Positions 35,439 to 38,660 of a stretch of 39,550 nt of DNA are shown piece after piece. Source of the stretch: Pyrinomonadaceae bacterium (GTDB lineage: Bacteria > Acidobacteriota > Blastocatellia > Pyrinomonadales > Pyrinomonadaceae); contig JACMJZ010000016.1 of NCBI GenBank assembly GCA_014380365.1, positions 1-39,550 on the forward strand. Direction: 5' to 3'. Positions within the stretch are counted from its first letter, which is position 1; every line of letters starts with the position of its first letter. The notes beneath the pieces are model-generated. The model was given only the letters and a program-made list of their open reading frames with translations. It made no database searches and was not told where the DNA came from. Position numbers and translations under genes: made by a program.

Positions 35439-35807
35439 TTAGTAGCGACGATTCCGATTGCGCTTACGAATTTTGTAGGTGTAGACAGCGCCGCTACCGC
35501 CCCCTACCAGCGCGCCAATTGCCGCACCTTTCTTTCCGCCAGCCAAGCCACCGACCGCTGCGCCGCCAACTGCCGTGCCCGCCACCGTCAGTTTGTCCCG
35601 ATGCTTCTTCCAAAAAGAGCGCTTACGTCGTGTACGCCTTCTTTGCGCCGCTGCACCCGCGTTCGCTGATGCACCCGCATTCGCCGCCGCAAGTGAGCGT
35701 GCCGAAGCAACTGAACTTAAAGGCTCTATTGTGAAACCCAGTGTTAACAGGACTAAGACAACGGCTAGATACCGCCTCATTCTCTGAACTATTAAAGATG
35801 TGTTCAT
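35439..35807 (-). CDS. Exported glycine-zipper protein
   Basis: This encodes 122 residues. An N-terminal signal sequence (YLAVVLVLLTLGFTIEPLSS) is followed by an Ala-rich region and a very basic segment (QRRRTRRKRSFWKKHRDK). A glycine-zipper stretch (GTAVGGAAVGGLAGG, AAIGALVGGGSGAV) comes next, then a basic tail. Glycine zippers insert in membranes, as in Rick_17kDa/OmpA-associated proteins. It is probably an envelope protein, of unknown role. Confidence 0.8.
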   Translation of the reverse strand: MNTSLIVQRMRRYLAVVLVLLTLGFTIEPLSSVASARSLAAANAGASANAGAAAQRRRTRRKRSFWKKHRDKLTVAGTAVGGAAVGGLAGGKKGAAIGALVGGGSGAVYTYKIRKRNRNRRY

Positions 35808-36219
35808 CAGCTTTCCCCCTCCAAATCCTCTATTGATGATTCTTCAGCGGCAAGACCCGTGCCCGTTGCATAACGGCAGGAAGCTGGCGTTTTTCTACTA
35901 TTGCGGCACTCATGCGTACTCTTAGGAGGCAGTCTGTACCAGAGTGGCTCAACTTATGGGTTTGAACGAAAGGTGTATTGATCCATGAATAACGCTGAAA
36001 GCGTTAGCTAATTCCAGCCCAGGGTTGCCGCAACCCTGGGACTGTGCACCCTCAGAGAATCAAAACGCTGAAAGCGTTGGCTATCGTGCCAAAGCGAGTT
36101 CGCAAATTCCTTCAGAGTTCGCGAACAGATTTTTGTGCATTGGAATCCCAGGGCTGCAACAACCCTGGGCTGGAATTAACCAACGCTTTCAGCGTAACTC
36201 GTTTTCGGAGTCCGCGAGT
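35808..36219. other. Gene-free stretch holding the GCTGAAAGCG element
   Basis: No gene is seen. The 35991-36195 element, listed separately, takes up half of it. The remainder is presumably the promoter of the glycine-zipper gene. Confidence 0.5.
35991..36195. repeat. 205-bp inverted-repeat element (AACGCTGAAAGCGTT ends)
   Basis: Two arms of about 50 bp, 35991-36041 and 36146-36195, are inverse copies with about 90 percent identity by eye. Each arm contains a GCTGAAAGC palindrome at the end and a CCAGGGTTGC..GCAACCCTGG palindrome within. A third copy of the terminal word (AACGCTGAAAGCGTT) is at 36064. The layout resembles a miniature transposable element without coding capacity. Confidence 0.9.
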
Positions 36220-36750
36220 TTATTTAACTGTCTTCTCCTTCACAAACTTCAGCGCCACACCGTTCATGCAGTAACGCAGGCCAGTAGGTCTGGGGCCATC
36301 GTTGAAAACGTGGCCAATGTGGGAGTCACACCTCGCGCACAACACCTCGGTGCGGACTTCCGCAAGGCTGCTGTCAACCTCTTCACGTACATTCTCTTTT
36401 GCTATTGGCTGCCAAAAACTTGGCCAGCCCGTGCCTGAATCAAACTTGGCTTCAGAGCTAAACAGCGGCAGCCCACAAGCGACGCATTGGAAAAAGCCTT
36501 CCTGGTGATTCTCATTAAGCGGACTCGAGAAAGGTCGCTCAGTCCCCTTCCGGCGGGTCACGTTATATTGATCCGGCGTCAGGATGCGTTTCCACTCTGC
36601 GTCTTTCTTTATCACTTTTCTGATTCCTTTATTATTTGGCTGACTACGATTGCGATCCTGCAAGAGAGGCGCCCCGACAACCGACGACTTGAAGAACGCC
36701 GCAAAAGTCCCCAGCGCTACGGAAGATGAAAGAAAGTTACGTCTATTCAT
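36220..36750 (-). CDS. msrB: Tat-exported peptide-methionine (R)-S-oxide reductase
   Basis: This encodes 176 residues. The start MNRRNFLSSSVALGTFAAFF is a twin-arginine signal, so this MsrB acts outside the cytoplasm. It reduces methionine-R-sulfoxide in oxidised proteins. Zinc is held by Cys89, Cys92 (CVAC) and Cys138, Cys141 (CARC). The catalytic Cys161 is in GLRYCMNGVAL. GTGWPSFWQPI and HIGHVFNDGPRPTG are intact family segments. ATG at 36750 follows GAGG; the longer frame overlaps the upstream gene. It lies 46 bp after the exported kinase-like gene on the same strand, probably in one operon. Confidence 0.95.
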   Translation of the reverse strand: MNRRNFLSSSVALGTFAAFFKSSVVGAPLLQDRNRSQPNNKGIRKVIKKDAEWKRILTPDQYNVTRRKGTERPFSSPLNENHQEGFFQCVACGLPLFSSEAKFDSGTGWPSFWQPIAKENVREEVDSSLAEVRTEVLCARCDSHIGHVFNDGPRPTGLRYCMNGVALKFVKEKTVK

Positions 36751-36796: not shown

Positions 36797-37942
36797 TTAG
36801 TTGGAACAACGCGCATCGATGATCGTCTTAGCCTTGCGCTCAAATTCCGCGGTCCACACCTCAGGCGCCTCGTCGCGTTCTTGATTGCGGGAGGCGCGAA
36901 ACACCCTGGTGATTAAGCCGTTGCTCTTCTCCGCCTCCAGAAGTCTCTGCAGGCCGGTGGCCAGCAGCTGGCGGCCCGCCTCGCTGACACTCGCGTCGCC
37001 GACCCCTTTCGCGGTCGTAGTGCAACGTCCACCGCTCACCTTGATCGGGTCCTTGCCCTTCCAGGCGTCGAGCCTCGCCTTCTTCTCGCTGGCGCTGTTA
37101 TGACCAAACGTCGAGCCCATGTCGCTCACGTAGTACACCGCCTGCCCCGGCTTGCAGGTGCGCGTACCGTCATCGTTCTTCTGCGAATCGAGGCAGGCAA
37201 ATCGCTGGTTGTCGGTCTTGGGATCACCATGATCTATGAAGGCGAGCCAAAGTTTAAACGCGTCGATCTCGGCGCGTGGAGTTCCACTCGTCGCCAGTTT
37301 CGCCAGTGAGTCCTTGAGCGCCCCGGAGTCTTTGTCGTTGCACTTCACATCGATGCCACTGCCCAGCGGAAGCTCGATTCCCGCGGCCGGCTGCAGCGGC
37401 GTAAAGCTCGTACCCTGGAAACTGCTGGTCAAACTCTTCTCGCAGTCAGGACAGTTAACGTCTGCAACCCACTCATCATCGGCGAAGAAGCCCAACGCCC
37501 TGGAGAAACGCGAGGAGAGGAACTCGCCGTAGATCTCGCCGTTCCGCTTCTCTCTCGACTGTCCCTTGAAGTGTGGTTTCACCTTGTACCTGATCAGGTC
37601 TCCGTCCTCGTCCACCACGCCGGCGACCGAGCAATGGAATTTCGGCGTGGTGCCGGCGCCTTTGTTCAGGTCCTTGTTCGCAACGCAATTGAGCGGCAGC
37701 GCCAGCCCGGCGGAGTCCACTGGCAGCGCACCGGCGCGAGCGCCCTTAGTCGGGTTGAACCCGAGTACTGGGTCGTAGCCGGGATCGGGCTCCTGCCAAA
37801 CCTTCGCGGTTCTCTCCGCGAGCTCTCGCACCTCCGCAGTGAAACAGGATTTGCCTTTCTCCTGGGCTGCGACGGGCAATGCGATTGAAAGAATAAAGAG
37901 GAGGAGAGCTGGGACGACGGACATTTGCGATTTACGAAGCAT
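36797..37942 (-). CDS. Exported Cys-rich protein with kinase-like catalytic motifs
   Basis: This encodes 381 residues. A signal peptide (VVPALLLFILSIALPVAAQ) precedes a mature part with ten Cys, which suggests disulfides. Motifs suggest a protein- or lipid-kinase fold of the HipA/FAM20 sort. A Lys-bearing strand (IRYKVKP, 117-123) is followed by a helix with Glu (GEIYGEFLSSRF, 135-146). HGDPKTDN at 238-245 has the HxDxKxxN spacing of the catalytic loop. VSDMG at 272-276 stands in the DFG place. N-terminal and C-terminal parts match no known domain. ATG at 37942 follows AAAGGG. Function is an inference; family not recognised. Confidence 0.65.
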   Translation of the reverse strand: MLRKSQMSVVPALLLFILSIALPVAAQEKGKSCFTAEVRELAERTAKVWQEPDPGYDPVLGFNPTKGARAGALPVDSAGLALPLNCVANKDLNKGAGTTPKFHCSVAGVVDEDGDLIRYKVKPHFKGQSREKRNGEIYGEFLSSRFSRALGFFADDEWVADVNCPDCEKSLTSSFQGTSFTPLQPAAGIELPLGSGIDVKCNDKDSGALKDSLAKLATSGTPRAEIDAFKLWLAFIDHGDPKTDNQRFACLDSQKNDDGTRTCKPGQAVYYVSDMGSTFGHNSASEKKARLDAWKGKDPIKVSGGRCTTTAKGVGDASVSEAGRQLLATGLQRLLEAEKSNGLITRVFRASRNQERDEAPEVWTAEFERKAKTIIDARCSN

Positions 37943-38089
37943 AGCGGACCCTTTCTCGGGAGAAGTGGAGACTGCGCTGGTTGTTGTGGGGGGTACAGAC
38001 GAAATTCTAACAACCATTCAGAACAAAAGAAAGACTCGTGGTTGTCGGGTACCGGTGCAGTTTGGAATTGGGCTAATTCTCTTTGCGTA

Positions 38090-38381: not shown

Positions 38382-38504
38382 AAGTCGAAGATTATTGTGC
38401 CAGGTTCTGAGTACATAATCTCATCAAAATCAACGGCGCGGCGATGGTGAAGGTGCGGTGGGTACTGGGGTAATTGTGTGTTGCCACCTGTCGGGTCGCG
38501 ATGC

Positions 38505-38581
38505 GGGGCACTAGCCCGACCGTCAGGGAGGGCTCCATTCATGCACCTCGGAGCCCTCCCTGACGGTCGGGCTAGTGCCCC
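38505..38581. repeat. 32-bp perfect inverted repeat (GCACTAGCCCGACCGTCAGG)
   Basis: The arms 38505-38536 and 38550-38581 are exact inverse copies separated by 13 bases. Sequences in the arm recur in degraded form at 4425-4530. Confidence 0.95.
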
Positions 38582-38660
38582 GGAGATTAGCAACATACTC
38601 TTACCCCACTACGGTGCGGTGCGTGTGTTCCTTGAACCGTCGTACTGCCCATCACAAGAC

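Follow-up and report, generated by a model that had tools for sequence, protein, structure and literature searches.

Is a protein that combines kinase-like catalytic motifs with an export-type N terminus and ten cysteines a functional kinase of the cell envelope, given that few bacterial kinases are known to act outside the cytoplasm, and which genes does it work with? The question is raised by an open reading frame (ORF) in a 39,550-nucleotide stretch of Pyrinomonadaceae DNA, referred to here as the window. A first-pass annotation had described its product as an exported, disulfide-rich, kinase-like protein paired with an exported MsrB. We consider it probable (approximately 0.7) that the protein is an exported phosphotransferase with a protein kinase-like (PKL) fold, probably stabilised by disulfides, which acts on the envelope and whose family occupies the DUF4956-linked place of CotH. 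The features of the locus are collected in Table 1.

Table 1. Features of the kinase-like gene and of the adjoining msrB gene (window coordinates)
Feature	Position	Strand	Basis
Kinase-like gene, family A	36797..37942	-	381-aa ORF; relatives; AlphaFold2 model and structure matches
N-terminal hydrophobic export signal, ~residues 1-27	37862..37942	-	sequence; hydrophobic stretch; low model confidence there
Lys120, presumed donor-binding Lys, strand 119-122	37583..37585	-	37/37 in A, 66/66 in A+B; DSSP strand
Glu136-Glu140, presumed C-helix glutamates, helix 135-149	37523..37537	-	conservation; helix in model
Presumed catalytic loop HGDPKTDNQ, residues 238-246	37205..37231	-	D240 and N/Q245 66/66; between helix 223-235 and strand 246-250
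DMG 274-276, presumed metal-binding DFG equivalent	37115..37123	-	D274 and G276 66/66; just past strand 268-272
MsrB (SelR domain), possible Tat signal RRNFL	36220..36750	-	SelR E 3e-51; TAT_signal E 0.033, below its cut-off

The ORF begins with an ATG at position 37942, and a stop follows its 381 codons; an alternative in-frame ATG at 38017 would give a product of 406 aa. The sequence features originally read from it are all present, namely (i) the export-type N terminus, (ii) ten cysteines (residues 33, 86, 104, 164, 167, 201, 250, 263, 307 and 379), and (iii) correctly spaced kinase-like motifs. The strand IRYKVKP carries K120 and K122, with E136 and E140 coming next, while HGDPKTDN occupies residues 238-245 and DMG residues 274-276, D274 lying 29 residues past N245. 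The pattern HxDxKxxN with D[MFLVI]G 15-60 residues on, which was composed once the motif had already been seen, turned up in 5 of 200,000 shuffled versions of this protein. The ORF is a real gene, because a search of assembled genome contigs yielded 11 loci whose products share 66-77% identity with it, and matches were obtained in 17 of 396 searched genomes from the phylum. A random ORF or a chance motif was rejected on the basis of these relatives, the profile search and the shuffle test.

The same part of the window contains a perfect 33-nt inverted repeat with a 13-nt spacer (38504-38582). With as many as 3 mismatches allowed, the core of this repeat is found 85 times across the genome, 46 times in forward and 39 times in reverse orientation, compared to none for a reversed control. 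It is a member of a REP-like palindrome family, and three spaced copies are found at the starts of contigs C6 and C9.

All 11 close loci lie in records titled Acidobacteriota or Acidobacteria, Pyrinomonadaceae or Blastocatellia; the scope beyond Acidobacteriota is that of one genome-contig scan, sensitive to close relatives only. Within the phylum, the 17 genomes matched by the single-sequence search (the window's own counted) carried relatives with identity down to ~30%, and a profile built from 35 members (A1) extended the matches to at least 54 of the 396 genomes. The strong places of this search, designated family A, number at least 26 in 17 genomes, and the weaker places at least ~75. The family A alignment comprises 37 rows (14 close and 23 distant), including the window (L001) and the duplicate pair L002/L029. 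Profile A1 leaves out L001, so that the window is entered once, as well as L029 and L035, the last having masked bases.

Thirty-one weakly matching proteins from the fetched loci constitute a second family, B (alignment A2), which was found to be homologous to family A (hhalign 99.9%, E 1.5e-34). This alignment covers 31 of the ~75 weak places, some of the others lying in frames of 580-821 aa that may be something else. Three family B proteins are encoded in the window's own genome. Five weak A1 matches (G008:C138, G080:C57, G156:C1, G253:C29 and G090:C541) cover approximately columns 57-222 within long frames (580-746 aa); they differ from family B and possibly represent a third related family. 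Searches of plasmids and viral contigs found nothing useful, and the literature consulted (mostly open-access papers on CotH and polyphosphate, exported and bacterial kinase-like families, and DUF4956) contained no description of this family. We place the window protein in family A, which is undescribed and has family B as its sister in Acidobacteriota; the family may be listed in the KINtaro table or in the review of forty bacterial PKL families.

Comparison with known families by sequence was negative throughout. The window protein matched no family of Pfam, NCBIfam or PHROGs even at E 10, and its one match in the PDB was a designed protein (E 1.5). PDB searches with the window protein and with the profiles of A and B gave best E-values of 1.5 and 1.8, to unrelated proteins. 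The 35 family A members matched nine Pfam families at E≤1, one member each (best E 0.0044), and these nine include no kinase family, neither HipA (PF07804) nor Fam20. For the 31 family B members, the best E-values were 0.011 in Pfam and 0.02 in NCBIfam, likewise to no kinase family, and CotH (PF08757) was matched by none of the 35 A or 31 B proteins at E≤1. In profile-profile comparisons, 12 CotH proteins of the phylum scored 0.6% with A and 0.4% with B, against up to 1.9% for unrelated controls, and 17 HipA proteins of the phylum scored 0.2% with each; a merged A+B profile aligned with HipA over 132 columns at 1.6%. The same method links CotH with HipA at 78.6%. Membership of the CotH or HipA family by sequence was rejected on these Pfam and profile-profile results, and at the level of sequence the failed links count as a real negative against the kinase reading.

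The predicted structure gave a different picture. An AlphaFold2 model computed from A1 (pLDDT 87.1, pTM 0.87) has both lobes of a kinase, as the first-pass annotation would lead one to expect, and the motifs occur in it in the following order: strand 119-122 carries K120, helix 135-149 carries both E136 and E140, the D240-N245 segment is flanked by helix 223-235 and strand 246-250, and D274 immediately follows strand 268-272. The best 50 matches listed by VIA-align 2 were all kinases or pseudokinase kin, with identities of 7-15%. They included CtkA (Z 13.1, 4.4 Å over 230 residues), PI4K-IIalpha (Z 12.0, 4.5 Å over 236 residues, 11% identity), Fam20A (5wrr; Z 11.4, 4.4 Å over 256 residues), CotH (Z 11.0, 4.0 Å over 238 residues), Fam20C (Z 10.8) and HipA (Z 9.4, 5.0 Å over 231 residues), scores to be read against a typical best Z of 7 to 8 without a clear match, or up to 14 for mostly helical models, which the family A model is not. 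Foldseek against the PDB placed CtkA (3akl_C) first with a modest E-value of 3.5e-4 and TM-scores of 0.34 by query and 0.43 by target, followed by PI3K-like kinases and CotH, the best TM-scores being below 0.5.

A separate alignment was used to model family B (pLDDT 89.1). VIA-align 2 matched this model with CtkA (Z 14.2), Fam20C (11.9), PI4K-II (11.8) and HipA/HipT kinases (11.1-9.6), and Foldseek placed the Rio2 kinase first (E 9.9e-5) and CtkA second. CotH is absent among the 50 structure matches listed for this model, which excludes nothing. A viral fold library returned mostly kinases and was counted as fold support only. On the strength of the models, the window protein almost certainly adopts a PKL fold. 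The kinase assignment is supported by this predicted fold together with the motifs, the grounds on which it is made because no link to CotH or HipA was obtained with sequence profiles.

The conservation of the presumed catalytic residues was examined in both families. Within the 37 rows of family A, K120, D240, D274, G276 and R324 are invariant, E136, E140 and K242 are each kept in 36 rows and H238 in 34, and residue 245 is N in 27 rows and Q in 10. In the joint alignment (35 A and 31 B proteins), K120, D240, D274 and G276 are present in 66/66 and residue 245 is always N or Q, while E136 is kept in 65/66 and E140 in 63/66, with Asp in two. The presumed donor-binding Lys, helix-C Glu, catalytic Asp, metal-binding Asn/Gln and metal-binding Asp thus follow each other in the order expected of a kinase (66, 65, 66, 66 and 66 of 66). 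Among the residues that the first-pass annotation had singled out, K120, E136, E140, H238, D240, N/Q245 and D274 are indeed kept, but K122 is retained in the close family A rows only and varies outside them. The two refuting outcomes named in the first-pass annotation, a confident model lacking kinase lobes and free variation of these residues, thus did not occur.

Eight of the ten cysteines are general in family A (C104, C164, C167, C250, C263 and C307 in 37/37 rows, C379 in 35 and C86 in 34), and C33 and C201 are not. The median number of cysteines in family B is none, so the cysteines belong to family A and not to the fold. A crude rule detected a hydrophobic stretch at the N terminus in 30 of the 37 family A rows, several of which have uncertain start sites, and in 30 of the 31 family B rows; lipobox-like motifs were found by such a rule in five A and two B proteins. 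The N-terminal stretch and the conserved cysteines agree with the proposed location outside the cytoplasm, and, judged by its sequence, the window protein is probably exported. ATP is not expected there, which counts against the reading of an exported kinase.

The genomic neighbourhoods of many relatives point to phosphate chemistry. The close family A loci carry PPK1 and DUF4956 genes, often with a calcineurin-like phosphatase, for example in the order kinase-PPK1-DUF4956-phosphatase (L032, L033) or kinase-phosphatase-PPK1-DUF4956 (L039). By the crude rule used for calling neighbour genes, PPK1 and/or DUF4956 are present in 7 of the 11 close named loci and in none of L027, L030, L034 and L037, of which L027 and L034 are short contigs. 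Among the distant family A loci, L040, L042, L057 and L060 have DUF4956 and PLD-like genes, three of the four together with calcineurin-like phosphatases, and L044, L055, L056 and L058 have a calcineurin-like phosphatase without DUF4956; the remaining ones showed none of the tested neighbour genes in the stretch read. Family B loci are arranged as PPK1-kinase-DUF4956 (L108, L110) or phosphatase-kinase-DUF4956 (L111, L112). Two arrangements may be recorded separately: L042:7809-13152 encodes a pair of same-strand family A kinases separated by one ORF, with DUF4956 and PLD-like genes adjoining on the other strand, and L020:1093-3318 (= L049:7779-10004) is a 742-codon open frame in which a family A kinase is fused in frame to PAP2.

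Neither DUF4956 nor PPK1 is found beside the window gene itself. In its genome, phosphatase, PPK1 and DUF4956 genes are grouped on a different contig, where no A or B gene is present. In a genome of the same genus, a stretch of 29 residues resembling the C-terminal end of PPK1 (69% identity, E 1e-5) is located just upstream of the kinase gene (L038:9465-9551) and is probably a remnant. A PPK1 fossil was also searched for upstream of the window gene, and was not found. The window gene was, we infer, formerly part of a PPK1/DUF4956/phosphatase cluster and now lies beside msrB.

The association with DUF4956 was then compared with that of CotH across 297 genomes of the phylum (taken to be G000-G296), in which 54 DUF4956, 51 CotH and 20 VTC places were counted after second pieces of one protein had been merged. 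The merging, done by hand, removed five of the 56 rows for CotH, one of the 21 for VTC and several for the kinases; three of the 54 DUF4956 places score below the family cut-off. VTC lies within 10 kb of DUF4956 at 19 of its 20 places. CotH is found within 10 kb of 22 of the 54 DUF4956 places, and at 14 of the 22 VTC is that close as well. Kinase places were taken from the A1 profile search and their counts are lower bounds: at least 13 of the 54 DUF4956 places have a family A or B kinase within 10 kb, and none of the 54 is near both a kinase and CotH. Nineteen are near neither, although one of them (L117) was seen on reading to adjoin a family B gene. The combination of CotH, VTC polymerase and DUF4956 occurs in genomes G280, G294, G253 and others.

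Viewed from the kinase side, DUF4956 is no more than 10 kb away at 7 of the 18 family A places, compared with 0.08 expected if places were uniformly distributed in a 5-Mb genome. The same assumption predicts 0.18 of the 59 weak-hit places, and 8 were found, all of them family B genes. The other 11 of the 18 family A places, the window's gene among them, are not near DUF4956. In PMC7112168, an accessory set of genes adjoining pel operons is made up of CotH, a poly-phosphate polymerase, DUF4956 and DUF4832, and a similar set is described in PMC12345266. Most likely, families A and B fill the place that CotH takes in a DUF4956- and polyphosphate-linked envelope module.

As to mechanism, the window protein is likely an active phosphotransferase. 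Outside the cytoplasm, K120 and E136 would position a nucleotide or another phosphate donor, D240 would activate the acceptor hydroxyl, and N/Q245 and D274 would hold Mg or Mn. The phosphate would then pass to an acceptor in the envelope, more likely Ser/Thr residues in a surface protein, by analogy with CotH, and less likely a lipid or glycan; a protein acceptor as such has somewhat less than an even chance. According to PMC7821199, CotH transfers label to coat proteins in vitro from gamma-labelled ATP; the same source treats the origin of the ATP used in phosphorylating the spore coat as an unanswered question. In view of the recurring polyphosphate link a different donor is conceivable, and we consider it improbable that the A and B kinases use polyphosphate, or a membrane phosphate carrier, as their source of phosphate. 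In such a scheme, PPK1 would make the polymer, the MgtC-like DUF4956 protein would pass it or its energy across the membrane, the kinase would phosphorylate the envelope and the phosphatase would reverse this, CotH, VTC and DUF4956 being the same machine built of other parts.

An exported lipid or glycan kinase (PI4K-II- or Fam20B-like) would instead modify a membrane lipid, a lipid carrier or a surface sugar, with the neighbouring PLD-like, PAP2 and metallophosphatase proteins acting on the same pool. A lipid acceptor is kept open because one family A member is fused to PAP2 (E 4e-19) and a PLD-like gene lies near five distant family A loci; in addition, one family A gene is divergent from BacA/UppP, and PI4K-II is among the best structural matches. 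We nevertheless regard this reading as unlikely: PAP2 and BacA each occur once among the scanned neighbours, the close set has PPK1 and DUF4956 instead, and the DUF4956 place is elsewhere occupied by a protein kinase, CotH.

Known AMPylating PKL proteins have altered active sites, and in families A and B the K, E, D, N/Q and D positions are all kept. This counts against a PKL enzyme with another chemistry, such as SelO-like AMP transfer, SidJ-like glutamylation or some other nucleotide transfer, which we judge very improbable, even though PMC10870513 describes both AMPylation and glutamylation within the PKL fold. Similarly, a catalytically dead pseudokinase, with a scaffolding role or one in sensing nucleotides or polyphosphate, would suit an export signal that points to an ATP-scarce place, but the catalytic and metal-binding positions are invariant in 66/66 proteins (N or Q at 245 counted as one). 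It was rejected as first choice on this conservation, and appears very unlikely.

The envelope modification and repair pair originally suggested, in which the kinase-like protein would work with an exported MsrB, is extremely unlikely: msrB lies downstream on the same strand with a gap of 46 nt (if started at the ATG at 36750), has a possible Tat signal and is possibly cotranscribed with the kinase gene in the window, but among the loci read it adjoins the kinase gene in this genome only, and it is beside no other relative searched, including the same-genus L038 (18 kb read). A tblastn search with the window MsrB over loci L001-L125 found only two copies of the window's own locus, and MsrB was rejected as a conserved partner on this basis. 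Downstream of msrB, positions 35987-36200 form an inverted repeat whose 55-nt arms, 104 nt apart, are 87% complementary and which is composed of the smaller palindromes AACGCTGAAAGCGTT and CCCAGGGTTGCCGCAACCCTGGG. Further downstream, 35439-35807 on the reverse strand encodes a small Gly/Ala-rich protein with a hydrophobic N terminus, possibly, as judged by eye, an exported glycine-zipper protein.

If the window protein is an envelope phosphotransferase in the place of CotH, the position of A and B genes beside DUF4956, and often PPK1, makes a general envelope phosphorylation system, and its feeding by polyphosphate, testable. It also provides a lead on DUF4956, a membrane family without an assigned function.

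Among known systems, the best structural match is CtkA (Z 13.1), with HipA at 9.4, and the D-x-K-x-x-N/Q of the family resembles the D-x-H-x-K/R-N of the 17 HipA proteins of the phylum. HipA and CtkA are, however, not known to be exported by a signal of this kind, and HipA profiles do not match A or B. Type II PI 4-kinases are similar in fold (Z 12.0) but are eukaryotic and lipid-directed, at 11% identity. Fam20A/B/C are likewise secreted atypical kinases with disulfides (Z 11.4-10.7), a likeness judged by overall structure, whereas the window family is bacterial and without a sequence match to them. CotH shares with families A and B a bacterial atypical PKL fold (Z 11.0) and, for part of their members, the link to DUF4956, both in this phylum and in the published pel-associated gene sets. 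It differs in that A and B have no Pfam or profile link to it, adjoin PPK1 or phosphatases and have no place within 20 kb of CotH, and in that family A has eight conserved cysteines. By analogy, CotH is the best guide to how the window protein works, though not its family by sequence. What is new in comparison is two exported kinase-like families, so predicted from their models, that appear to replace CotH beside DUF4956, with a recurrent link to phosphate genes that hints at envelope phosphorylation.
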